From assembly GCF_000774145.1 (NCBI RefSeq), contig NZ_KN322983.1, forward strand, positions 186,001 to 250,000: 64,000 nucleotides of DNA, given 5' to 3'. This document shows, one piece after another, positions 51,807 through 64,000 of the stretch (position 1 is the first letter of the stretch; every line of letters begins with the position of its first letter). The position numbers were made by a program, and so were the translations under genes. This DNA comes from Pseudomonas mediterranea CFBP 5447 (GTDB taxonomy: Bacteria > Pseudomonadota > Gammaproteobacteria > Pseudomonadales > Pseudomonadaceae). The notes under the pieces are model-generated. The model ran no database searches. It saw nothing but the letters and a program-made list of their open reading frames with translations, and was not told the origin of the DNA.

Positions 51807-52535
51807 ATGAATCTTTTGATCAAATTCAATATCGCCCAATGGCGCGCATGGGCCCCTGGGCTCGAAAGCGTGGACGACTGGCAGGCGTGGAGCCGACAGC
51901 CGGTGATATTGCCCGTCAACGACGCCGCCCCTGATGTTTCGTTCCTGCCGGCCATGCAGCGCCGTCGTCTCAGCCGCCTGGCGCGGATGGCCTTCAGTGT
52001 CGGCTGGCCCCTGGCCGAAGGCCGGCCGGACCTGCCGTTGGTCTTTATTTCCCGCCACGGGGAAACCCCGCGCACCTTCGAGATTCTCAAGGACCTGGCA
52101 GCCGACCAACCGTTGTCGCCCACCCAGTTCAGCCTGTCGGTGCACAACGCAGTGATCGGCCTGTGGTCGATCATGCGCAACGAAACCAGCGAGATGACCG
52201 CCCTGGCCGCCACAGGCGATGGGCTGGAACATGGCGTTCTGGAAGCTGCCGCGCTGTTGAATGAGGGCGCGCCGGCGGTGCTGCTGGTCATCACCGAAGA
52301 ACAACCACCCCAGGTCTATGCACCTTGGGTCGACGACGTGCCGTTTCCCTATGCGATAGGGCTGCTGCTGACTCCGGGCGACGACTGGCAACTGGCCTTG
52401 TCCACCCCACAGGCTCAACCGTCGGGCAGCGACTGGCCCCATGCCCTGGACCTGCTGCGCACGCTGCTGAACAACGAAACCACCTGCCAACATGCCTGGA
52501 AGAATCGCGTATGGACCTGGCAACGCAACCGGTGA
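51807..52535 (+). CDS. Beta-ketoacyl synthase N-terminal-like protein of aryl polyene cluster (ApeC-like)
   Basis: This 242-residue protein fits the short ketoacyl-synthase-like family (Ketoacyl-synt_2): RRRLSRLARMAFSVGWPLAE and VFISRHGETPRTFEIL, then QPLSPTQFSLSVHNAVIGLW. It covers only the N-terminal half of a ketosynthase and has no catalytic Cys at the usual place, so it is probably a non-catalytic partner, like a chain-length factor, for a full ketosynthase encoded further right. It is the first gene of the aryl polyene operon. GGGGTGGG precedes the ATG. Its last 25 bases overlap the next gene. Confidence 0.8.
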   Translation: MNLLIKFNIAQWRAWAPGLESVDDWQAWSRQPVILPVNDAAPDVSFLPAMQRRRLSRLARMAFSVGWPLAEGRPDLPLVFISRHGETPRTFEILKDLAADQPLSPTQFSLSVHNAVIGLWSIMRNETSEMTALAATGDGLEHGVLEAAALLNEGAPAVLLVITEEQPPQVYAPWVDDVPFPYAIGLLLTPGDDWQLALSTPQAQPSGSDWPHALDLLRTLLNNETTCQHAWKNRVWTWQRNR

Positions 52536-53320
52536 CAAGCAAGCATCGCGACGCCTATTACTGGCGCCTGTTCGCGACCGCGGCAAGCTTCGCCCTGTTC
52601 GGGCTGGGCGGGCTGTGCCTGCGGTTGCTGGTGTTTCCGCTGCTGGCCTGGTGGCCCGGCGATCCCGAGGCCCATCGGCAACGGGCCCGGCGCACGGTTG
52701 GGCGGCTGTTCTGGTTCTTCATCCGGTTCATGGCCCGCACCGGCGTGCTCACCTATCAGATCGACGGCGCAGAAAAACTTGGCCGTCCCGGACAAATGAT
52801 CATCGCCAATCATCCGTCGCTGATCGACGTGGTCTTTCTGATCGGGTTGGTGCGCGATGCCAACTGCGTGGTCAAGCAAAGCCTCTGGGACAACCCCTTC
52901 ACCCGCGGCCCGTTGCGCTCGACCCAATACATCAGCAACGACGGCAGCATGGACATGCTCGACGCCGCCAGCGACGCCCTGAAAGATGGCCAGGCCCTGA
53001 TTGTGTTCCCCGAGGGTACGCGCACCCAGCCAGGCCAGGCGCCGGCCTTTCATCGGGGCGCCGCGGCCATTGCCCTGCGGGGTGCGAAAATCCTCACGCC
53101 CGTGACCATCAAGGTCAGCCCGACCACCCTGACCAAGGCCGAACCCTGGTACCGCATTCCCCAACGGCGCGTGCACTTCAGTTTCCATGTGGGGGCCGAT
53201 ATAGATCCAGGGGCGTTCGCCACGCTCGGCCCGCCGCCCCTTGCTTCGCGCAGGCTCAACGACTTTTTGCATCACTATTTCATCAAGGAGCTCGCCGAAG
53301 ATGAGCGATCTGCACCGTGA
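52511..53320 (+). CDS. 1-acyl-glycerol-3-phosphate acyltransferase-like protein (ApeD-like)
   Basis: This 269-residue membrane-associated acyltransferase has one or two hydrophobic segments near residues 20-48. The PlsC motifs are intact: ANHPSLIDVVF (HX4D) and IVFPEGTRTQPGQ (FPEGTR). In aryl polyene clusters this enzyme is thought to help join the aryl polyene acyl chain to a lipid; the acceptor is not known from sequence. The ATG at 52511 (GGAAG upstream) lies inside the previous gene, and the end overlaps the next gene by 20 bases. Confidence 0.88.
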   Translation: MDLATQPVTSKHRDAYYWRLFATAASFALFGLGGLCLRLLVFPLLAWWPGDPEAHRQRARRTVGRLFWFFIRFMARTGVLTYQIDGAEKLGRPGQMIIANHPSLIDVVFLIGLVRDANCVVKQSLWDNPFTRGPLRSTQYISNDGSMDMLDAASDALKDGQALIVFPEGTRTQPGQAPAFHRGAAAIALRGAKILTPVTIKVSPTTLTKAEPWYRIPQRRVHFSFHVGADIDPGAFATLGPPPLASRRLNDFLHHYFIKELAEDERSAP

Positions 53321-53558
53321 CATCAAACAGCTGATCATCGACGCCCTCGGCCTGGAGGATATCGAGGTCGACGACATCGGTGACCACCAGACCCTGTTCG
53401 GCGAAGGCCTGGGCCTGGATTCTGTGGATGCCCTGGAGCTTGGCCTGGCCATTCAGAAACAGTACGGCATCAAGATAGATGCCGACGCCAAGGACACCCG
53501 CAACCATTTCAGCAATGTGGCAAGCCTTGCGGCCTTCGTCACTGCAAAACGCGCTTGA
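53301..53558 (+). CDS. Acyl carrier protein 1 (ApeE-like)
   Basis: This 85-residue carrier protein has the phosphopantetheine attachment Ser in GLDSVDALELGLAI. It begins MSDLHRDIKQLIIDALGLED. Aryl polyene clusters encode two carrier proteins; one carries the starter and growing chain. The start overlaps the acyltransferase gene by 20 bases. It needs a phosphopantetheinyl transferase not seen in this window. Confidence 0.92.
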   Translation: MSDLHRDIKQLIIDALGLEDIEVDDIGDHQTLFGEGLGLDSVDALELGLAIQKQYGIKIDADAKDTRNHFSNVASLAAFVTAKRA

Positions 53559-53567
53559 GACCGGACC

Positions 53568-53822
53568 ATGCAAACTCGTGACGACATTTTCAACACCCTG
53601 CGCGATGCCCTGGTTGAGCTTTTCGAACTGGACCCTGAGCGCGTGACGCTGGAATCGAACTTGTATCAGGACCTGGAAATCGACAGCATCGACGCGGTCG
53701 ATCTGATCGACCACATCAAGCGCCAGACCGGCAAGAAAATCGCGGCTGAAGAATTCAAGTCCGTACGCACCGTCAACGACGTGGTCGAGGCGGTCTATCG
53801 ACTGGTCCAACCGGCCGCATGA
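53568..53822 (+). CDS. Acyl carrier protein 2 (ApeF-like)
   Basis: This 84-residue second carrier protein has the attachment Ser in LEIDSIDAVDLIDHI. The DSIDAVDL form differs from the DSVDALEL of the first, so the two probably have separate roles. The stop overlaps the next start (ATGA). It lies 9 bases after the first carrier gene. Confidence 0.92.
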   Translation: MQTRDDIFNTLRDALVELFELDPERVTLESNLYQDLEIDSIDAVDLIDHIKRQTGKKIAAEEFKSVRTVNDVVEAVYRLVQPAA

Positions 53823-54364
53823 GCCGGCTGATTGGCCTTGGCCTGCTATTGGCGGGCCTGCTGTACCCCTTTGCGGTGTATTTCGGCATGGAGCACTTCG
53901 CCCCCTGGCAGTTCGGCCTGCTGCTGGGTAGCCTGTGGCTGGCCCGGGCATTGCTGGTTGACCGCGGGCCCGGCAATCTCTGGATGGCGGTCGCGGCGAT
54001 CGTGTTCTGCGGGTTGCTCGCGCTGTTCGATAACCCGCTCCTGCTGCGTTGGTATCCGGTACTGATCAGTGCCTTCATGCTCGGGATGTTCGCCCTGAGC
54101 CTGAAATACGGTCCGCCGGTGATCGAGCGCATAGCCCGCCTGCGTGAACCGCAGCTGCCGGCAAAAGCGGTGGTGTATACCCGCCAGGTCACAGTGGCCT
54201 GGAGTGTGTTTTTCCTGTGTAACGGTTTGCTCGCCGCCGCCCTGACCCTCTGGGCGCCGCTGAGTTGGTGGATGTTGTACACCGGCCTGATTTCCTACGG
54301 ATTGATGGGGCTGCTGTTTGCCATTGAATGGCTCATACGACAAAAGGTAAGAGGCCGCCCATGA
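53819..54364 (+). CDS. Integral membrane protein of aryl polyene cluster (COG4648, ApeG-like)
   Basis: This 181-residue protein has five or six hydrophobic segments, starting MSRLIGLGLLLAGLLYPFAV. It belongs to a membrane family found almost only in aryl polyene/xanthomonadin-type clusters, with no known biochemical role. It is translationally coupled on both sides (ATGA overlaps with the carrier gene and with the ligase gene). Confidence 0.85.
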   Translation: MSRLIGLGLLLAGLLYPFAVYFGMEHFAPWQFGLLLGSLWLARALLVDRGPGNLWMAVAAIVFCGLLALFDNPLLLRWYPVLISAFMLGMFALSLKYGPPVIERIARLREPQLPAKAVVYTRQVTVAWSVFFLCNGLLAAALTLWAPLSWWMLYTGLISYGLMGLLFAIEWLIRQKVRGRP

Positions 54365-56040
54365 ATTGGATAAAACTTGAGCAGATATTGCTCAAGGCTC
54401 AGCCGGAGCGCGCAGTTGCAGTCGATCCGGCACTCAGCCATTCGCAGCTGCGGGACGAGGCGCTGTGCCTGGCCGCTGGCCTGCGCGCTCGCGGTGTACA
54501 GCGTATGGCCGTGCACCTGGAAGACGCCGCCGACCTGGCCATCGCCCTGCTCGGTGCCTGGCGTGCCGGGGTGCGCGTCCTGCTTCCGGCCGACCTGCAG
54601 GCCCAGACCCGCCAGCGCTGGTCGGCCGAGGTCGACCTGTGGTTGACCGAGCAGCCTGGCGATACCCATCCTGGCGACTTGCGACAAGCCCCCTTGGAGC
54701 CTGTCGAGCTGGACCTCGACCAATGCTGGCTGAGCCTGTGCACCTCCGGTTCCAGCGGCGAGCCCAAGCGCATCGAGAAAAACCTGCGTCAGCTGAGCAA
54801 TGAGGTCCAGGCCCTGGAGGAGTTGTGGGGCGCCGAGCTGGGCCCGGCCTGCATGATTGGCAGCGTCGCCGCCCAGCATATCTACGGCCTGCTGTTCCGG
54901 GTCCTGTGGCCGCTGTGCGCGGGACGGCCGTTCGTGCGTCGGCAATTGGCGTTTCCGGAAGACCTGCAACGTGCCAGCCGCGAGCACCCGGTCTTCGCCT
55001 GGGTCGCCAGCCCGGCGCTGCTCAAGCGCATGGGCGACAACCTCGACTGGACGGCCTTGAGCAGCGTGCGCCGGGTGTTTTCCTCCGGCGGCGCCTTGCC
55101 GGCCGAAGCCGCCCAAAGCCTGCGGCAACGCCTGGGCCAATGGCCGACGGAAATATTCGGCAGTTCGGAAACCGGCGGTATCGCCTGGCGTCAGGGCGAG
55201 GAACGGTGGCAGCCCTTTGCTGGCGTCGAACTGAGCCAGGACAGCGACGGCGCCTTGCTGATCGCCTCGCCCTATCTGCCGCCCGGTCATGTGGAACACA
55301 CCGCCGACGCGGCACGGATTGGCGCCGATGGGCGCTTCGAACTGCTCGGACGCCTGGACCGCATCGTCAAGCTCGAAGAAAAGCGCATCTCCCTGCCGAT
55401 GCTGGAACAGGCGCTGGTGGCCCACGACTGGGTGAGCGAAGCACGGCTGGGGGTGGTACGGGAAAATCGTGCCTCCCTCGGCGCGCTGTTGGTACTGAGT
55501 GAAGCCGGCCTGCGCGCCTTGCGTAACCAGGGCCGTCGCGCCGTGACCGAAGCCTTGCGCCGCCACCTGAGCGGACATTGCGAAACACTGGCCCTGCCAC
55601 GGCGCTGGCGCTGGCTGCGCCAGTTGCCCCTCAACGCCCAAGGCAAGCTGCCCCAGGCAGAGGTCGAAGCCCTGCTGACGGCACCGCGCGCAAAGACGCC
55701 TGACGTACTGGAGCAGGTCGAGACCGACGGCGAATGGAGCCTGCAATTGGTCGTGCCGCCGGACCTGGCGTACTTCAGCGGCCACTTTCCTACTGCCCCG
55801 GTGTTGCCCGGCGTGGTGCAGGTCGATTGGGCCCTGAACCTGGGCCGGCAACTGCTGGACCTGCCACCGCGCTTCATCGGGATGGAAGTGCTGAAGTTCC
55901 AGCAACTGGTCCGTCCCGGCGATGAAATCCAGCTGCACCTGCGCTTCGACCGCGAGCGCGGCAAGCTGTATTTCGCCTACCGCAATGATACGGCGGCGTG
56001 TTCCAGTGGGCGGATTGTGCTGGGGGCGGCTGATGCCTGA
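54361..56040 (+). CDS. Acyl-ACP ligase / 3-hydroxyacyl dehydratase fusion (ApeH-ApeI-like)
   Basis: This 559-residue protein has two parts. Residues 1 to about 445 are an AMP-forming ligase: [17 protein letters not shown] (P-loop-like), [14 protein letters not shown] (A5), then [19 protein letters not shown] (A7/A8). The C-terminal 110 residues form a hotdog dehydratase with [17 protein letters not shown]. The ligase should load an aryl acid on a carrier protein; the dehydratase half should act during chain extension. In the E. coli ape cluster these are described as separate ApeH and ApeI. The ATG at 54361 overlaps the preceding stop. Confidence 0.88.
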
Positions 56041-56201: not shown

Positions 56202-56936
56202 ATGCATAACCCCTGCGCCGTCATCCCCGTCTACAACCACGAAACCGCCATCGCCTCGGTAGTCCAGGCGTTGCTCGCCAACAACCTGCCCTGCGTGTTG
56301 GTCGATGACGCCAGCAGCCCGGCCTGCGCGGCGGTGCTGGAGCGGCTGGCGGTCGATGAGCGGGTTCACCTGGTCAGGCTGGCGGTCAACCAGGGCAAGG
56401 GTGGCGCCGTCATGACCGGCCTGCGGGAAGCTTCGCGCCTGGGCTTCAGCCATGCCTTGCAGGTGGACGCCGATGGACAGCACGACCTCGATGATGTGAG
56501 AACCTTCGTCGACCAGTCCCGCGCCCACCCGCAAGCATTGATCTGCGGTTACCCGCAATACGACGCCAGCGTGCCAAAAGGTCGCCTGTACGCTCGCTAC
56601 CTGACCCACGTCATGGTCTGGATCAACAGCCTGTCCCTGCAGATCCGCGATTCCATGTGCGGCTTCCGGGTCTACCCCCTGCCGGCGACCCTGGCGCTGA
56701 TCAACTCGGCGAACATTGGCAAGCGCATGGATTTCGATTCGGACATCCTCGTGCGACTGGCCTGGCGTAACCAGCCGATGCGCTGGCTGCGCACCCGGGT
56801 CCACTACCCCCAGGACGGGGTTTCGCACTTCCGCCTGTTCCACGACAACGTGCTGATTTCCAGCATGCACACCCGCCTGTTCTTCGGCATGCTGGTCCGT
56901 GCTCCCCTGATTCTCTGGCGACGGTGGCGGGCATGA
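56202..56936 (+). CDS. Family 2 glycosyltransferase of aryl polyene cluster
   Basis: This 244-residue GT2 enzyme has the GT-A motifs VIPVYNHETAIASVV, PCVLVDDASSP, NQGKGGAVMTGL and LQVDADGQHDLDD (the DxD). It starts MHNPCAVIPVYNHE after GGAAGG. It probably glycosylates the polyene head group or its lipid anchor. In the E. coli-type clusters a glycosyltransferase and an acyltransferase are fused in one protein (ApeJ); here they are two genes whose stop and start overlap (ATGA). Confidence 0.88.
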   Translation: MHNPCAVIPVYNHETAIASVVQALLANNLPCVLVDDASSPACAAVLERLAVDERVHLVRLAVNQGKGGAVMTGLREASRLGFSHALQVDADGQHDLDDVRTFVDQSRAHPQALICGYPQYDASVPKGRLYARYLTHVMVWINSLSLQIRDSMCGFRVYPLPATLALINSANIGKRMDFDSDILVRLAWRNQPMRWLRTRVHYPQDGVSHFRLFHDNVLISSMHTRLFFGMLVRAPLILWRRWRA

Positions 56937-57877
56937 GTCTTCAGGCAGACAAGCAGCATTGGGCCGATCGTCAGGAGCGCGGCAGTTTCTGGTTGATGAA
57001 ACTCACCGCGTTCGCCGCCAAAGTGCTCGGCCGTCGTCTGCTGAGCCCGTTGCTGTACGGCATCGTCCTGTACTTCTTCATTTTCGGTCGCAGCGCTCGC
57101 CAGGCAGCCTGGCAGTATCAGCAGCGCCTGGCCGACTGGAGCGGCCGTATCGAGCTGCGCCCCACCCACCGGAAAGTTTTCAGACAGTTCATGGCGTTCG
57201 CCGACTCGCTGCTGGACAAGCTCGACGTGTGGAACGGCAAGCTGAGCATCGACCAGATCGAAATCGTCGATACGGCACTGCTGCGCAATCACCTGCGTGG
57301 TGCCCGCGGGCAGATGCTGGTGGGCGCGCACCTGGGCAACCTGGAAATGTGCCGGGCCCTGGCCGAGTTGGGCGAAAAAGTCACCATGAACGTGCTGGTG
57401 CACACCAAGCATGCCGAACAATTCAATCGGCTGCTGGGTGAAGCCGGCGCCACGCACCTGCGGCTGATCCAGGTCAGCGAACTGGATCCGGCGGTGATGC
57501 TGCAACTGAGCGAGCGCCTGGAGCGTGGCGAGTGGCTGGCGATTGCCGGCGACCGCGTACCGCTGCACGGCGGGCGCAGCGTGACCGTGGATTTCATGGG
57601 GCACCCGGCCGCGTTCCCCCAAGGGCCGTGGCTGATGGCCGGCCTGCTGAAATGTCCGGTCAACCTGCTGATGTGCCTCAAGCACGAGGGGCGCTATCGC
57701 GTCACCCTCGAGCCCTTCGCCAATGCCGTGGTGTGGAAACGCACCGAACGCGAGCAAGTGATCGCCCACTGGGCCGGTCGCTACGCCGAGCGCCTGGCGC
57801 AGTATTGCCTCCAGGCCCCCCAACAGTGGTTCAACTTTTACCCATTCTGGAAGACCGATGACGATGCCCACTCTTGA
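56933..57877 (+). CDS. LpxL/HtrB-like acyltransferase of aryl polyene cluster
   Basis: This 314-residue protein resembles lipid A late acyltransferases (LPLAT superfamily): GQMLVGAHLGNLEMCRAL holds the HX4(D/E) motif (HLGNLE), and AIAGDRVPLHGGRS and GHPAAFPQGPWLMAGLLKCP follow. One hydrophobic segment lies near residues 30-48. It would transfer the polyene acyl chain to a glycolipid. It is coupled to the glycosyltransferase gene at the start and overlaps the ammonia-lyase gene by 20 bases. Confidence 0.88.
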   Translation: MSLQADKQHWADRQERGSFWLMKLTAFAAKVLGRRLLSPLLYGIVLYFFIFGRSARQAAWQYQQRLADWSGRIELRPTHRKVFRQFMAFADSLLDKLDVWNGKLSIDQIEIVDTALLRNHLRGARGQMLVGAHLGNLEMCRALAELGEKVTMNVLVHTKHAEQFNRLLGEAGATHLRLIQVSELDPAVMLQLSERLERGEWLAIAGDRVPLHGGRSVTVDFMGHPAAFPQGPWLMAGLLKCPVNLLMCLKHEGRYRVTLEPFANAVVWKRTEREQVIAHWAGRYAERLAQYCLQAPQQWFNFYPFWKTDDDAHS

Positions 57878-59402
57878 GCCGGTAACCTTCGGCGAACGCG
57901 CCCTGCGCATCGAAGACGTGCTGGCCCTGGCCAACCGCCAGGCGCCGACACAGTTGCAGGATGACCCGGCGTTCCGCCAGCGCATCGCCAAGGGTGCGCA
58001 ATTTCTCGACTCCCTGCTGGACAAGGAAGGGGTGATCTACGGCGTGACCACTGGCTACGGCGACTCCTGTGTGGTGGCTGTGCCGTTGCACCACGTCGAG
58101 GCCCTGCCACGCCACCTGTATACCTTCCACGGCTGCGGCCTGGGCAAGCTGCTGGATGCCCAGGCCACCCGTTCGGTGCTGGCCGCGCGCTTGCAGTCGC
58201 TGTGCCATGGCGTCTCCGGGGTACGGGTTGAACTGCTCGAACGTCTCCAGGCTTTTCTCGAACACGACATCCTGCCGCTGATTCCGGAAGAGGGCTCGGT
58301 GGGCGCCAGCGGCGACCTGACGCCGCTGTCCTATGTGGCCGCGACACTCTCCGGTGAACGTGAAGTCATGTACCGTGGCGAGCGCCGGCTGGCCGCCGAT
58401 GTACACCGCGAACTGGGCTGGACACCGCTGGTGCTGCGGCCCAAGGAAGCCCTGGCGCTGATGAACGGCACCGCCGTGATGACCGGCCTCGCCTGCCTGG
58501 CCTTCGCCCGGGCCGACTACCTGCTGCAACTGGCGACCCGCATCACCGCGCTGAACGTCGTCGCCTTGCAAGGCAACCCCGAACACTTCGACGAGCGCCT
58601 GTTCGCCGCCAAGCCACACCCGGGACAGATGCAGGTCGCCGCGTGGCTGCGCAAGGACCTGGCGATCGACGCGCCGACCGCGCCGCTGCATCGCCTGCAG
58701 GATCGCTACTCCCTGCGCTGCGCCCCCCATGTGCTCGGCGTGCTGGCCGACAGCCTGAGCTGGCTGCGCGCGTTCATCGAGACCGAACTCAACAGCGCCA
58801 ACGACAACCCGATCATCGACGCCGAAGCCGAGCGGGTGTTGCACGGCGGGCACTTCTACGGCGGTCACATCGCCTTCGCCATGGACAGCCTGAAGAACCT
58901 GGTGGCCAACGTCGCCGACCTGCTCGACCGCCAACTCGCCCTGCTGGTGGACGCGCGCTACAACCATGGCCTGCCAAGCAACCTGTCCGGCGCCAGCGCC
59001 GAGCGGGCGATGCTCAACCATGGCTTCAAGGCCGTGCAGATCGGCGCCAGCGCCTGGACCGCCGAAGCCCTGAAAAACACCCTGCCGGCCAGCGTGTTCT
59101 CGCGCTCCACCGAGTGCCACAACCAGGACAAGGTCAGCATGGGCACCATCGCCGCCCGGGATGCGATCCGCGTACTGGAGCTGACCGAACAGGTCGCCGC
59201 CGCGACACTGCTGGCGGCCAACCAGGGCGTGTGGCTGCGCAGCCGTGCCGAAGACGCGCGACCGCTGCCACCGGCCCTGGCCGCCATGCACGAACAACTG
59301 GCTACGGATTTCCCGCCGGTCATCGAAGACCGCGCCCTGGAAGGCGAACTGCGCCTGTGCCTGCGACGCATCGCCGAGCAACATTGGAGGCTGCATGCGT
59401 AG
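57858..59402 (+). CDS. Aromatic amino acid ammonia-lyase (HAL/PAL/TAL family) of aryl polyene cluster
   Basis: This 514-residue MIO enzyme has the Ala-Ser-Gly triad that forms the prosthetic group at residues 150-152 (GSVGASGDLTPLSYVA). The catalytic Tyr loop is GVTTGYGDSC. Also present are MNGTAVMTG and NSANDNPIID. The substrate-selectivity pair is Phe90-His91 (LYTFHGCGLG), where HAL has Ser-His, TAL His-Leu and PAL Phe-Leu, so the substrate cannot be named. In this cluster it should supply the aryl-acrylate starter. ATGs at 57858 and 57864 are both possible; GGAAG precedes them. It overlaps both neighbours. Confidence 0.9.
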   Translation: MTMPTLEPVTFGERALRIEDVLALANRQAPTQLQDDPAFRQRIAKGAQFLDSLLDKEGVIYGVTTGYGDSCVVAVPLHHVEALPRHLYTFHGCGLGKLLDAQATRSVLAARLQSLCHGVSGVRVELLERLQAFLEHDILPLIPEEGSVGASGDLTPLSYVAATLSGEREVMYRGERRLAADVHRELGWTPLVLRPKEALALMNGTAVMTGLACLAFARADYLLQLATRITALNVVALQGNPEHFDERLFAAKPHPGQMQVAAWLRKDLAIDAPTAPLHRLQDRYSLRCAPHVLGVLADSLSWLRAFIETELNSANDNPIIDAEAERVLHGGHFYGGHIAFAMDSLKNLVANVADLLDRQLALLVDARYNHGLPSNLSGASAERAMLNHGFKAVQIGASAWTAEALKNTLPASVFSRSTECHNQDKVSMGTIAARDAIRVLELTEQVAAATLLAANQGVWLRSRAEDARPLPPALAAMHEQLATDFPPVIEDRALEGELRLCLRRIAEQHWRLHA

Positions 59403-59820
59403 CCAGGGCGTGCTGCATGTCGAAACGCAGATTGTCGTACCGTTTTTCGATGTCGATTCGATGCACGTCGTCTGGCACGGCCACTACGTCAAATACCTGG
59501 AAGTGGCCCGCTGCGCCTTGCTCGATGAGATCGGCCACAACTACAACGACATGCTCGCCGCTGGATACGCGTGGCCCGTGATCGACCTGCAACTGCGTTA
59601 CGTGCGCAGCGCGGTGTTCGGCCAGGCCCTGACTGTGCGCGCCAGCCTGGTGGAGTGGGAGAACCGATTGAAGATCAACTACCTGATCAGCGACACGCTC
59701 ACCGGCGAACGCCTGACCCGTGCCAGCTCGGTGCAGGTGGCCGTGGACGTCACGACACGCGAGATGCTGCTGGCCTCGCCCAAGGTGTTTGTCGACGCCG
59801 TCGAAAGGAAACTGTCATGA
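59395..59820 (+). CDS. 4-hydroxybenzoyl-CoA-type thioesterase (ApeK-like)
   Basis: This 141-residue hotdog protein has the 4HBT signature VPFFDVDSMHVVWHGHYVKY (Asp and His of the active helix). It may release or edit acyl chains during polyene synthesis. GGAGG lies 5 bases before the ATG at 59395, which overlaps the end of the ammonia-lyase gene. The stop overlaps the lolA-like start (ATGA). Confidence 0.9.
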   Translation: MRSQGVLHVETQIVVPFFDVDSMHVVWHGHYVKYLEVARCALLDEIGHNYNDMLAAGYAWPVIDLQLRYVRSAVFGQALTVRASLVEWENRLKINYLISDTLTGERLTRASSVQVAVDVTTREMLLASPKVFVDAVERKLS

Positions 59821-60410
59821 AGCGCCTGTCCCTCTGGTTGCTACTGTTCTGCCTGTCGCCCCTGGCCCAGGCCTTCGACTTGCAGCAACTGAGCGAACAG
59901 CTGGCCCGCCCGGATGTCATCCACGGCCAGTTCATCCAGGAAAAGCACCTGCGCGCCCTGCCCCAACCGCTCGTCAGCAAGGGACATTTCGTGCTGGCAA
60001 AAAAACAAGGGCTGCTGTGGCTGCTGCAGACGCCGCTGCAACAGGATTACCGCATTACCGCCCAGGGCATCGCCCGACGGGACGGCAACGCCTGGCAAAT
60101 GTTGCCGAACAAGAGCGCCGGCGCCGAGCAGAACCGGCTGTTCCTGGCCGTGTTGCAGGGCGACAGCAGCGGCCTGCTGCGGGACTTCGAACTGAGCCTG
60201 TCGGGCGAGCCGCAACAGTGGAAACTGACCCTGACCCCGCGTTCGGTGCTGCTCAAACAGGTGTTCAACCAGATCAACATCGACGGCGGCGAGCTGGTGC
60301 AGCGCATCGAGCTGCTGGAAACCCAAGGCGACCGCACGGTGCTGCGCATGCAGGATAGCGTCGCCACGCAACCCTTGAGCGAAGCGGAGCAACATGACTT
60401 TGCCGAGTGA
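59817..60410 (+). CDS. LolA-like periplasmic carrier of aryl polyene cluster (ApeL-like)
   Basis: This 197-residue protein has a clear signal peptide, MKRLSLWLLLFCLSPLAQA, with cleavage before Phe. The mature part resembles LolA (FIQEKHLRALPQPLVSKGHF; KQGLLWLLQTP). It is expected to ferry a lipid-linked polyene across the periplasm. It overlaps the thioesterase gene at its start and the exporter gene by 17 bases at its end. Confidence 0.88.
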   Translation: MKRLSLWLLLFCLSPLAQAFDLQQLSEQLARPDVIHGQFIQEKHLRALPQPLVSKGHFVLAKKQGLLWLLQTPLQQDYRITAQGIARRDGNAWQMLPNKSAGAEQNRLFLAVLQGDSSGLLRDFELSLSGEPQQWKLTLTPRSVLLKQVFNQINIDGGELVQRIELLETQGDRTVLRMQDSVATQPLSEAEQHDFAE

Positions 60411-62733
60411 ACGCAGCCTGCCACGGCTGTTCCTGATCCTGCTGCTGGCGGTGCTGGCGCTCGCCGGCTGGCAATGGCGCAACGGTGCACCACTGTCGGT
60501 CAATCTCATGGAGCTGGTGCCGGGCACGTCCCCCGATGCCCTGGAGCTTGTCGCAGAGCAGCGCATGCAGGAACCGCTGAATCGCGAGGTGCTGGTGCTG
60601 GTCGGTCATGCCGACCGCCAGCAAGCCATCGCCCTGGCGCAAACCCTTGGCGAACAATGGCAGGCCAGCGGCCTGTTCGATAAGGTCCAGTGGACGCTGC
60701 AAGCCGATTTGCCGGCGCTGCGTACGCAATTGCTGAACGGGCGCCTGGCGATGCTCTCGGTTGCGGACCGTCAGCAACTGATCGAGCAGCCCCAGGCGTT
60801 CATCCAGCAGCGGGTGCAAGCCCTGTTCGACCCGCTCAGCGGCTTCAGCCTGGTACCGAGCCAGGATGACTGGCTGGGCCTGACCGGGCGCATCCAGAAC
60901 AGCCAGCCCCAGCGCGGCGCGATACAGCTGGATGTGGGCAGCGGTGCATTGATCGCCGATGCCGACGGCAAAAGCTGGGTGATGCTGCGGGCTCGCACCC
61001 AAGGCAACGCCTTCGACATGAACCTGCCGCTGCAAGTGGCCGATCTGCTGCAACGCAGCCGTGACCAGGCGAGCCAGGCCCAGGGCCAGCTGTTGGCGGC
61101 CAGCGGCCTGCTGTACGCCGCCAGCGGCCAGCAACAGGCCTCCAGGGAAATCACCTGGGTCGGCGGTGGCGCCACCGTCGGCATTCTGTTGCTGTTGTTG
61201 CTGGCCTTCCGACGCCTGCGGGTATGGCTGGCGTTCCTGCCGGTGCTGGTGGGCATGCTGTTCGGCGCGGTGGCCTGCGTGGCGCTGTTCGGGCGCATGC
61301 ATGTCATGACCCTGGTGCTGGGCTCGAGCCTGATCGGCGTGGCGGTGGACTATCCGCTGCACTACCTGTCCAAGAGCTGGAGCCTCAAGCCCTGGCGCAG
61401 CTGGCCGGCCCTGCGCCTGACCCTGCCGGGGCTGAGCCTGAGCCTGGCGACCACTTGCATCGGCTATCTGGCCCTGGCCTGGACGCCCTTTCCGGCCCTG
61501 ACCCAGATCGCGGTATTTTCCGCCGCCGGGCTGCTCGGCGCCTACCTGACGGCGGTCTGCCTGCTGCCAGCGCTGCTCAAGGGCACCGACCTGCGTCCCG
61601 CCCAATGGCCGCTACAGTTCTGCGAACAGTTGCTCAAGGTCCGCGAAGCACTGCTGGCCCGGGTTCCCACGCCGATCCTGCTGGCGTTGCTGCTGATTTT
61701 CTGCGCCGGTGGGCTTTGGCACCTGAACACGAAGAATGACATCCGCCAATGGATCGGCACGCCCCAGCACCTGACCGACGAGGCCCGCGACATCGCCCGT
61801 ATCACCGGTTTCCAGCCCACCAGCCAGTTCTTCCTGATCCGTGCCGATAATCAATCCCAACTGCTGGAGCGCCAGACCGCCCTCAACGAACGGCTGGACC
61901 AGTTGATCGGCCTGGAAAAACTCCAGGGCTACCTGTCGCTGAACCAACTGGTCAGCCCGCCGGCCGAGCAGCAAAAGGTACGTGAAGCCCTGGCGCGGCT
62001 CCCGGCGTTCTGGCAACCGCTGCTGGATCTCGGCGTGCCGGTCGCGGCCTTGCAGGCGGAGCTGGCCCAATTGCAGGCCTTGCCGGTGGAAGACATCGAT
62101 GCCGCCCTGTCCGGTCCGTTGGCCGAGCCGTACCGTCCCCTCTGGCTCGGCCCGACGGCGCAAGGCGTGGCCGCGATGGTCAGCCTGCAAGGCTTGAACG
62201 ATGCGGCGCTGCTGCGCTTGCAGGCGGTGGATCTGCCCGGTGTGCAATTGGTGGATCGCCTGGGCGATCTGAACCGGGTGTTCGCCGCCACACAGATCAG
62301 CGCCGCCGAGCTCAAGCTGGCTTCCTGCGTACTGATCGTGCTGGTATTGATCTGGCCGTTCGGCGCCAGGGCAGCGTTGCGCATCGTCGCCCTGCCGCTG
62401 CTGGCCGCGCTGTGCAGCCTGGCGAGCCTGGGCTGGCTGGGGCAACCGCTGACGCTGTTCAGCCTGTTCGGTCTGTTGCTGGTGACGGCCATCGGCGTCG
62501 ATTACGCGATCCTGATGCGCGAGCAGATCGGCGGCGCCGCCGTGAGCCTGCTGGGCACCCTGCTCGCGGCGGTCACCACGTGGCTGTCGTTCGGCCTGCT
62601 GGCGCTATCCAGTACGCCGGCGGTGAGCAACTTCGGCCTGGCGGTAAGCCTGGGGCTGGCATTCAGCTTCATGCTGGCGCCGTGGGCCGGACGCCAGGCG
62701 CATGCAACACCTGTGCTGGAACCCGCCCAATGA
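60394..62733 (+). CDS. MMPL/RND-type exporter of aryl polyene cluster (ApeM-like)
   Basis: This 779-residue inner-membrane protein has two repeats, each with a periplasmic loop followed by five or six membrane segments: the first set starts near residue 250, the second near 640. GVAVDYPLHYLSKSW and GVDYAILMREQ are the charged transmembrane-4 motifs (Asp) used for proton coupling in MMPL transporters. It probably moves the polyene lipid from the inner membrane to the LolA-like carrier. GGAG precedes the ATG. Confidence 0.9.
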   Translation: MTLPSERSLPRLFLILLLAVLALAGWQWRNGAPLSVNLMELVPGTSPDALELVAEQRMQEPLNREVLVLVGHADRQQAIALAQTLGEQWQASGLFDKVQWTLQADLPALRTQLLNGRLAMLSVADRQQLIEQPQAFIQQRVQALFDPLSGFSLVPSQDDWLGLTGRIQNSQPQRGAIQLDVGSGALIADADGKSWVMLRARTQGNAFDMNLPLQVADLLQRSRDQASQAQGQLLAASGLLYAASGQQQASREITWVGGGATVGILLLLLLAFRRLRVWLAFLPVLVGMLFGAVACVALFGRMHVMTLVLGSSLIGVAVDYPLHYLSKSWSLKPWRSWPALRLTLPGLSLSLATTCIGYLALAWTPFPALTQIAVFSAAGLLGAYLTAVCLLPALLKGTDLRPAQWPLQFCEQLLKVREALLARVPTPILLALLLIFCAGGLWHLNTKNDIRQWIGTPQHLTDEARDIARITGFQPTSQFFLIRADNQSQLLERQTALNERLDQLIGLEKLQGYLSLNQLVSPPAEQQKVREALARLPAFWQPLLDLGVPVAALQAELAQLQALPVEDIDAALSGPLAEPYRPLWLGPTAQGVAAMVSLQGLNDAALLRLQAVDLPGVQLVDRLGDLNRVFAATQISAAELKLASCVLIVLVLIWPFGARAALRIVALPLLAALCSLASLGWLGQPLTLFSLFGLLLVTAIGVDYAILMREQIGGAAVSLLGTLLAAVTTWLSFGLLALSSTPAVSNFGLAVSLGLAFSFMLAPWAGRQAHATPVLEPAQ

Positions 62734-62784: not shown

Positions 62785-64000
62785 ATGCCTGCAACTGAAA
62801 TGGAACGTCGCCAGGTCGTCATCATCGGCGCGGGGCCGTCCGGCGCCATCGCGGCCGCACTGCTCAAGCGCAAGGGCCACGATGTGCTGGTCATCGAACG
62901 CCAGCATTTCCCCCGGTTCTCCATCGGCGAGAGCCTGTTGTCCCATTGCCTGGACTTCGTCGAAGAGGCCGGCATGCTCGACGCGGTGAATGCCGCCGGC
63001 TTCCAACGCAAGAACGGCGCGGCCTTCGCCTGGGGCGAGCGTTACAGCGCCTTCGATTTCGGCGACACCTTCAGCGAAGGCAAGCCCACCACCTTCCAGG
63101 TACAACGCGCCGATTTCGACAAGCTGCTGGCCGACCAGGCCGCATTGCATGGGGTGGAAATTCGCTACGGCGAAGCCATCGCCAGGGTCGATTTCAACCT
63201 CGCCAAGCCGCAACTGGGCGTGCAGCGCGAGGACGGCAGCGAATATCGGATCGAGGCCGATTTCGTCCTCGACGCCAGCGGCTATGGTCGAGTGCTGCCG
63301 CGCTTGCTGGACCTTGAGGCGCCGTCGAACTTCCCGGTGCGCCAGGCCGTCTTCACCCATGTCGAGGACCGCATCGATGCGCCGGCCTTCGACCGGGAGA
63401 AAATCCTCATCACCACCCACCCGACCCAGCGCGACATCTGGTTCTGGACCATTCCGTTCAGTGGCGGGCGCTGCTCGGTTGGCGTGGTCGCGGCGGCGGA
63501 ACATTTTGCCGGCCGCACCGACGACCTCGACGCCTGCCTGCGGAGTTTCATCGATGAGACTCCCAGCCTCGCCAAGGTGCTGGAGAACGCCGTGTGGGAC
63601 ACCCCGGCACGGACCATCGGCGGCTACTCGGCCAATGTCAAAACCCTGCATGGTCCAGGTTTCGCCCTGCTGGGCAACGCCGCGGAGTTCCTCGACCCGG
63701 TGTTTTCCTCCGGCGTGACCATCGCCATGCGCTCGGCAAGCATGGCGGCCGACGTGTTGCATCGTCAGTTGCAAGGCGAAAGCGTGGACTGGCAAAGCGA
63801 ATTCGCCGAACCACTCAAGCGCGGCGTCGATACCTTCCGCTGCTACGTCGAGGGCTGGTACGCCGGCACCTTCCAGGACGTGATCTTCTATACCGAAGGT
63901 TCTGCCGATATCCGCCGCATGATCAGCTCGATCCTGGCCGGTTATGCCTGGGACCAACGCAACCCGTTCGTCAGCGAACCCAAGCGTCGCCTGCGCATGC
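62785..64000 (+). CDS. FAD-dependent oxidoreductase with flavin-halogenase motifs (3' end outside window)
   Basis: 405 codons are visible and the gene runs off the right edge. AAGGAG lies 5 bases before the ATG. The N-terminus has the FAD site VVIIGAGPSGAIAAAL. Three hallmarks of flavin-dependent halogenases are present: Lys76 in QRKNGAAFAWG, WFWTIP at residues 219-224 (WxWxIP), and FLDPVFSSG at 302-310 (FxxPxxSxG). The protein could chlorinate or brominate an aryl head group; related flavoproteins in pigment clusters may instead act as monooxygenases or dehydrogenases. It is separated from the exporter gene by 51 bases. Confidence 0.85.
   Translation, partial: MPATEMERRQVVIIGAGPSGAIAAALLKRKGHDVLVIERQHFPRFSIGESLLSHCLDFVEEAGMLDAVNAAGFQRKNGAAFAWGERYSAFDFGDTFSEGKPTTFQVQRADFDKLLADQAALHGVEIRYGEAIARVDFNLAKPQLGVQREDGSEYRIEADFVLDASGYGRVLPRLLDLEAPSNFPVRQAVFTHVEDRIDAPAFDREKILITTHPTQRDIWFWTIPFSGGRCSVGVVAAAEHFAGRTDDLDACLRSFIDETPSLAKVLENAVWDTPARTIGGYSANVKTLHGPGFALLGNAAEFLDPVFSSGVTIAMRSASMAADVLHRQLQGESVDWQSEFAEPLKRGVDTFRCYVEGWYAGTFQDVIFYTEGSADIRRMISSILAGYAWDQRNPFVSEPKRRLRM

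Follow-up and report, generated by a model that had tools for sequence, protein, structure and literature searches.

A flavin-dependent halogenase family protein in the aryl polyene clusters of Pseudomonas as a candidate pigment-tailoring enzyme

By its sequence, its predicted fold, and its place in a phylogenetic tree, the flavoprotein encoded at the 3' end of the window (the whole stretch of 64,000 nucleotides from Pseudomonas mediterranea CFBP 5447 that was analyzed here) is a member of the flavin-dependent halogenase (FDH) family. We refer to the gene and its product as FLAV. With modest confidence, we favor the reading that FLAV acts as an FADH2-dependent halogenase, probably one of the carrier protein type, and tailors the aryl head of the yellow aryl polyene (APE) pigment specified by the surrounding gene cluster. 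The initial annotation had recognized halogenase hallmarks in the protein, located it in an APE cluster, and proposed that this Pseudomonas may make a halogenated APE. The family assignment is supported by motif, tree, and predicted fold, and the location by the APE genes that precede it in the window and follow it in the genome, while the halogenated pigment is plausible as a candidate product.

The open reading frame of FLAV is open at the window edge. The full protein, for which the initial annotation had asked, was obtained from the genome record (G000:C26) and has 415 amino acids (L002:10786-12033); 10 codons and the stop codon lie beyond the window, and the stop ends 32 bases past its edge (G000:C26:250032). 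The GAGPSG, Lys76, WFWTIP, and FLDPVFSSG motifs reported earlier are all present at the residues to which they had been assigned. In the list below, the 20 other FDH rows are 9 FDH references and 11 rows of a second FDH branch.

62785..64000, plus strand: FLAV, FDH-family flavoprotein; codons 1-405 of 415 inside the window
62827..62844, plus strand: GAGPSG dinucleotide-binding motif, FLAV residues 15-20
63010..63012, plus strand: Lys76 codon, within RKNGAAFAWG; aligned to the Lys of 20/20 other FDH rows
63439..63456, plus strand: WFWTIP (WxWxIP), FLAV residues 219-224
63676..63678, plus strand: Asn298 codon, in GNA; 20/20 other FDH rows have GDA
63688..63714, plus strand: FLDPVFSSG (FxxPxxSxG), FLAV residues 302-310

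The Pfam profile PF04820 (Trp_halogenase) matches FLAV with an E value of 9.6e-26, but 5 of the 14 control genomes also match it (those of Escherichia coli, Caulobacter, and three archaea), so that this match alone is unspecific and weak evidence. We consider the order of the matches among PDB sequences to be the stronger indication of family. In a phmmer search, FLAV matched 3nix at 2.9e-107, followed by 8zop (FasV by its title, 1.2e-43), CmlS (1.3e-41), and CndH (1.5e-41); FasV, CmlS, CndH, Mpy16, Bmp2, ChlB4, and PltA together span 1e-43 to 1e-30, RadH, CtcP, and PltM span 1e-24 to 1e-14, and hydroxylases appear from about 1e-8. Neither PrnA nor RebH is among the best 60 of 74 PDB matches or the 50 fold-match rows listed. 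FLAV scores below the cut-offs of the NCBIfam CmlS equivalog NF033113 (166 bits, cut-off 900), of the QhpG monooxygenase model NF049967 (129.1 bits, cut-off 240), and of the geranylgeranyl reductase model TIGR02032 (GG-red-SF; 125.5 bits, cut-off 158.8). The last of these scores, together with the PDB title of 3nix, would be the basis for regarding FLAV as a dehydrogenase or reductase related to the geranylgeranyl reductases. This reading, already disfavored, is in our estimation very improbable, given that the score stays under the cut-off, that WxWxIP is absent in 5/5 geranylgeranyl reductase rows, and that these reductases fall beyond the 99/97 branch of the tree.

The AlphaFold model of FLAV has a pLDDT of 92.6, and its best fold match (Z score, VIA) is 3nix at 53.5, followed by Mpy16 (43.6), ChlB4 (43.6), PltA (43.5), FasV (42.9), Bmp2 (42.5), RadH (39.1), and CndH (38.3). 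After 3nix, seven halogenases are found in eight rows, and about 3 Z units then separate them from the hydroxylases, led by PnpA (35.5) and PHBH (35.2); the halogenase CmlS falls among these at 35.3. The QhpG structure 7CTQ is not among the fold matches listed. Since the FDH fold is common to hydroxylases, the fold match of FLAV does not show its function.

The phylogenetic tree comprises 49 rows, namely 22 FLAV/3nix, 9 FDH references, 11 second-branch rows, 2 QhpG, and 5 geranylgeranyl reductases; tryptophan halogenases were left out, and the PDB rows are partial. Several of the references are taken by us to be experimentally established, and SgcC3 is the name we assume for the halogenase reference of the C-1027 plasmid, the row so labeled being the gene annotated there as "tryptophan 7-halogenase." FLAV and 3nix form a single clade (100/100) nested in the FDHs, all FDH rows are split from QhpG and the geranylgeranyl reductases at 96/88, and the geranylgeranyl reductases are on the opposite side of a 99/97 branch from FLAV. 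The initial annotation had named a position within the non-halogenating dehydrogenases or monooxygenases as an outcome that would refute the halogenase proposal; the protein is outside both non-halogenating families of the tree. The sister relation of the FLAV/3nix clade to PltA, Mpy16, ChlB4, and Bmp2 is weak (84/82), and several long end branches, together with the partial PDB rows, make the exact place of FLAV within the tree uncertain.

The alignment with PltA and CndH suggested earlier, here extended to all of these rows, shows that FLAV shares Lys76, WxWxIP, and FxxPxxSxG with the FDH references: the three are found in 22/22 FLAV/3nix rows, 9/9 FDH references, and 11/11 second-branch rows, while WxWxIP and FxxPxxSxG are found in 0/7 of the QhpG (2) and geranylgeranyl reductase (5) rows. 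One of these seven has an aligned Lys, the geranylgeranyl reductase of L261, in a poorly alignable stretch. Across 47 FLAV orthologs (47 to 100% identity) from a sample of 398 genomes of the phylum, Lys, WxWxIP, FxxPxxSxG, and GNA/GNS are each conserved in 47/47 and GxGxxG in 46/47, and these hallmark residues are likewise invariant in a second, partly overlapping alignment of 46 rows. The constancy of Lys76 across the 47 orthologs suggests that the residue is in use. As for the specificity of the motifs, WxWxIP occurs in none of 1415 other open reading frames (507,332 amino acids; 81 loci), and FxxPxxSxG occurs in 21 places. In the one ortholog lacking GxGxxG, L093 (G349), the FLAV frame starts just before the Lys76 position, which may reflect truncation or disruption of this copy or an error in the contig.

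Six residues, A16, R186, N298 (of GNA), W336, W358, and Y387, are private to the FLAV/3nix clade, each being found in 0/20 of the other FDH rows; D298 is kept in 2/2 QhpG and in 4/5 geranylgeranyl reductases. Such private substitutions speak against a plain FDH reading of the clade, and GNA with the five further residues would fit an enzyme that has the ancestry and the active site of an FDH but carries out a non-halogenating oxidation of the APE, either ring hydroxylation or chain oxidation, by means of the flavin hydroperoxide directly or with HOX formed transiently. We deem this unlikely, though deserving of serious attention. It would agree with the APEs of the FLAV cluster class not being described as halogenated in the literature available to us and with QhpG, a hydroxylating enzyme with an FDH-like fold (PMC7876137). 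It is at odds with the invariance in FLAV of Lys76 and WxWxIP, both absent in QhpG, the latter motif having been proposed to keep substrate and flavin apart and thereby to prevent hydroxylation (PMC10696468).

FLAV is one of the 19 ordered genes of an APE type II PKS cluster. Several of these genes are named by order only, and the cluster spans the window edge and combines KS/CLF, ACPs, KR, dehydratases, AMP-ligase, LolA, exporter, and acyl- and glycosyltransferases. The genes that precede FLAV in the window are as follows.

51807..52535, plus strand: ketosynthase/chain-length-factor-like (ApeC-like); a like-placed gene of L247 is annotated as beta-ketoacyl synthase chain length factor
52511..53320, plus strand: lysophospholipid acyltransferase (ApeD-like), from gene order; start codon chosen
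53301..53558, plus strand: acyl carrier protein 1, from sequence and order; start codon chosen
53568..53822, plus strand: acyl carrier protein 2, from sequence and order
53819..54364, plus strand: membrane protein (ApeG-like), from gene order
54328..56040, plus strand: AMP-ligase fused to a FabZ-like dehydratase domain (ApeH/ApeI-like)
56202..56936, plus strand: glycosyltransferase (ApeJ-like), from gene order; start codon chosen
56924..57877, plus strand: LpxL-like acyltransferase, with weak NCBIfam matches
57858..59402, plus strand: aromatic amino acid ammonia-lyase (PF00221, E 1.5e-159)
59419..59820, plus strand: thioesterase (ApeK-like), from gene order; start codon chosen
59817..60410, plus strand: LolA-like carrier (ApeL-like), from order against the APE_Ec gene table; start codon chosen
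60394..62733, plus strand: MMPL/RND-type exporter (ApeM-like), next gene upstream of FLAV

On the 3' side of FLAV, the genome continues with a methyltransferase, a lipoprotein (DUF3261 position), a KS, a dehydratase, a KR, and a KS. The PF11659 profile missed the lipoprotein of the source genome, the ApeC-like protein has no NCBIfam match, and none of the 19 cluster genes as named is a flavin reductase. The ammonia-lyase stays under the cut-off of all 8 NCBIfam models that it matches (FlxA TAL, 315.8 of 700 bits); it probably provides the step from tyrosine to p-coumarate.

In the proposed mechanism, the ammonia-lyase would convert tyrosine to p-coumarate and the AMP-ligase would load this onto an ACP, as their domains and the assayed C. 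pinensis FlxA and FlxY suggest, and the type II PKS genes, judged by homology, would build the polyene. With FADH2 supplied by a flavin reductase encoded elsewhere in the cell, O2 and chloride or bromide would give rise to HOX at the flavin. By analogy with the FDH mechanism, HOX would pass to Lys76, and this residue may steer it toward the carbon ortho to the phenol, in an APE that is either still bound to the ACP or finished. The product would be moved to the outer membrane by means of the LolA, exporter, and lipoprotein genes.

FLAV is present in 111 of 149 Pseudomonas genomes and the APE exporter in 117, and a comparison of the two lists places the exporter in each FLAV-bearing genome. In the six exporter-bearing genomes without FLAV, the remaining cluster genes are kept in order, the methyltransferase in five of the six; the sixth, L257, is without methyltransferase and has an antiporter-like gene there instead. 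The occurrence of FLAV on a six-protein tree of 22 clusters requires no fewer than three changes. Being usual in APE clusters but dispensable, and missing from clusters whose other genes remain in order, FLAV would be expected to tailor the product rather than to take part in chain assembly.

Some further observations concern the neighborhood of these genes. The antiporter-like gene of L257 (12994-14154, 386 amino acids) occupies the site of the missing FLAV and methyltransferase, and a membrane antiporter-like gene lies between exporter and FLAV at L260:10200-11360, the identity of both having been assigned by eye. In S. globisporus C-1027 (L252), a cation:proton antiporter adjoins the gene annotated as a halogenase, and the Azoarcus arc cluster is described as including a Na/H antiporter (PMC3949708). 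In one Pseudomonas genome, FLAV appears as two overlapping frames (G022:C11:94041-95290), which would be explained by a frameshift or by faulty assembly.

Of the 398 genomes sampled from the phylum, 62 have a match to FLAV at 1e-30, and the matches of the 47 counted as FLAV are all below 1e-100; the proteins of the other 15 (at most 36% identity) are different FDH-like proteins. DUF3261 is found in 54 of the 398. FLAV lies among APE genes in 46 of the 47 loci, and in the exception, L066 (G472), it is adjoined by KR as the sole APE-type gene; the cluster may be split there, or FLAV and KR may form a unit of their own. One locus, L112 (G537), is without FLAV and has the neighboring cluster genes in place; L072 and L073 (G241 and G446) of the same genus have it. 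Among named loci, for which the best 80 of 561 confirmed candidates were considered, 72 have 5 or more of the 14 core APE genes in the flank and 58 an ammonia-lyase; the 8 loci with fewer than 5 core genes include five with full 21-kb flanks. The closest named loci examined are from Pseudomonas, for example, P. fluorescens PS662 with 89% identity. No A. fischeri locus is among these best 80 of 561; in Aliivibrio sp. S4MY1 (L165), FLAV lies beside APE genes. Three Cupriavidus loci (L221, L227, and L233) resemble L066, with just one or two APE-type genes within about 10 kb to either side of FLAV, and the same two readings may apply to them. A homolog of 42% identity is carried by a Bacteroidota plasmid, pAUEa of Aureispira anguillae (L245), near genes for an AMP-binding protein, a C45 family peptidase, and a trifunctional MMPL/acyltransferase/methyltransferase protein.

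Two couplings of FLAV to cluster genes were considered and rejected. For the ammonia-lyase, 67 loci were kept from 71 (L066, L094, L099, and L117 were left out), with both genes in 36, FLAV only in 10, the lyase only in 5, and neither in 16; Fisher's test gives a p of 3.5e-5, but there are only 5 independent pairs, with a median p of 0.5, and a tight coupling is thus rejected. For the methyltransferase, each gene is found without the other: FLAV-less clusters keep it, P. fluorescens PS662 (L243) has FLAV but no methyltransferase match between FLAV and the lipoprotein gene, and Pseudoalteromonas sp. Bsw20308 (L247) has FLAV without methyltransferase. The same loci, with the methyltransferase kept in 5/6 FLAV-less clusters, argue against FLAV being the hydroxylase of an obligate hydroxylase/O-methyltransferase pair.

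To our knowledge, the structure of the V. fischeri APE is without halogen. That pigment is not named as halogenated in the available text of PMC8253772, and Pseudomonas clusters are compared to its cluster in several reports: they are defined by likeness to APE_Vf (PMC8719888), the P. donghuensis cluster, ammonia-lyase included, is likened to it (PMC5851621), and those of marine Pseudomonadaceae are placed in the flexirubin-like E. coli/V. fischeri class (PMC10165715). Among the titles and abstracts searched, we found neither a halogenase or halogenated APE of Pseudomonas nor a halogenated APE from the E. coli/V. fischeri-like cluster class. Flexirubins are described with ring methylation and/or chlorination (PMC3992019), that of C. 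pinensis being C43H54O4. Xanthomonas pigments are reported to carry 0 to 2 Br, with a halogenase gene in two Xanthomonas clusters and none in Lysobacter (PMC3691225), and the Azoarcus arcuflavin is given as C41H52O4, halogen-free in spite of the arcA gene annotated as a halogenase (PMC3949708). The variable bromination in Xanthomonas and the case of arcuflavin would fit a FLAV whose halogenation depends on halide supply or growth conditions, or reaches only a part of the pool, its pigments looking halogen-free in ordinary media. Since arcA is known by annotation and may be of another branch or inactive, this appears quite improbable to us. The ring chlorination of some flexirubins speaks for an aryl-head halogenase. 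Against it we count the halogen-free arcuflavin, the formula of the C. pinensis flexirubin, the V. fischeri APE taken together with the FLAV of Aliivibrio, the private residues, the lack of a flavin reductase among the cluster genes, the non-universal linkage, the fact that no halogenated APE was found in the search, the shortfall against the CmlS model, and the weak sister relation to the PltA group.

Halogenase-type genes are said or shown to occur in aryl polyene clusters both here and in Xanthomonas (PMC3691225), so FLAV could be thought of as the ortholog of the xanthomonadin brominating enzyme, making a brominated xanthomonadin-like pigment. We consider this reading very improbable on the FDH branches compared. 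The second FDH branch (95/83; 26 to 32% identity; GDA) is found in APE-like clusters that have no ammonia-lyase: in the 10 regions fetched from 9 of 15 genomes, 7 hold KS, KR, GT, or exporter relatives, and an ammonia-lyase is found in 0/10. It is this branch that is perhaps of the xanthomonadin type; L118, L119, L126, and the Variovorax plasmid L246 have no APE cluster relatives within 20 to 25 kb. Moreover, the Xanthomonas and Azoarcus pigments are reported to start from 3-hydroxybenzoate via XanB2 (PMC3949708), whereas the FLAV cluster has an ammonia-lyase.

Returning to FLAV as an aryl-head halogenase, the wider proposal that the FLAV/3nix clade is an uncharacterized FDH subfamily which, with pocket residues and a GNA motif of its own, halogenates carrier-bound or finished APE heads, missed so far, has in our judgment slightly less than an even chance of being right. 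If it is true, the APEs of most Pseudomonas, and those of many Vibrio, Shewanella, Photobacterium, Cupriavidus, and Acinetobacter, would carry chlorine or bromine, at least partly. A large class of outer membrane antioxidant pigments would then bear an unrecognized modification, and a halogenase subfamily for which one structure, 3nix, is already solved would be open for assay. If FLAV does not halogenate, every FDH hallmark would be combined with another chemistry, and the protein would test how far motifs predict chemistry.

Among the known systems, APE_Ec of E. coli CFT073 resembles the FLAV cluster in its core APE genes (PMC8253772, Table 1) and differs from it in having no flavoprotein or ammonia-lyase among the table entries listed; in line with this table, FLAV is found in 0/11 clusters of family f14, which we infer to be E. 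coli-like by gene content. QhpG is like FLAV in its FDH-like fold, with CmlS as its nearest structure, and illustrates that such a fold can hydroxylate (PMC7876137); unlike FLAV, it is without the Lys, WxWxIP, and FxxPxxSxG (2/2 rows) and falls outside the FDH branch. The second FDH branch (L118 to L127 and Variovorax L246) has the FDH hallmarks of FLAV in 11/11 rows and differs in its separate branch, its lower identity, and its GDA. PltA, Mpy16, and ChlB4, which we take to be FDHs acting on carrier-bound rings, share all three hallmarks with FLAV and match its fold with Z scores of 43.5 to 43.6 over 383 to 387 residues, and with Bmp2 they are a possible, not strong, sister group of the FLAV clade; they differ in their identity (25 to 28%), in having GDA, and in being without R186, W336, W358, and Y387. 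The closest solved relative of FLAV is 3nix, a structural genomics entry titled "flavoprotein/dehydrogenase"; we know of no assay behind the dehydrogenase name. It comes from a member of the Bacteroidota, Cytophaga hutchinsonii, is 42.5% identical to FLAV over 402 aligned residues, and has the same Lys, WxWxIP, FxxPxxSxG, and GNA.
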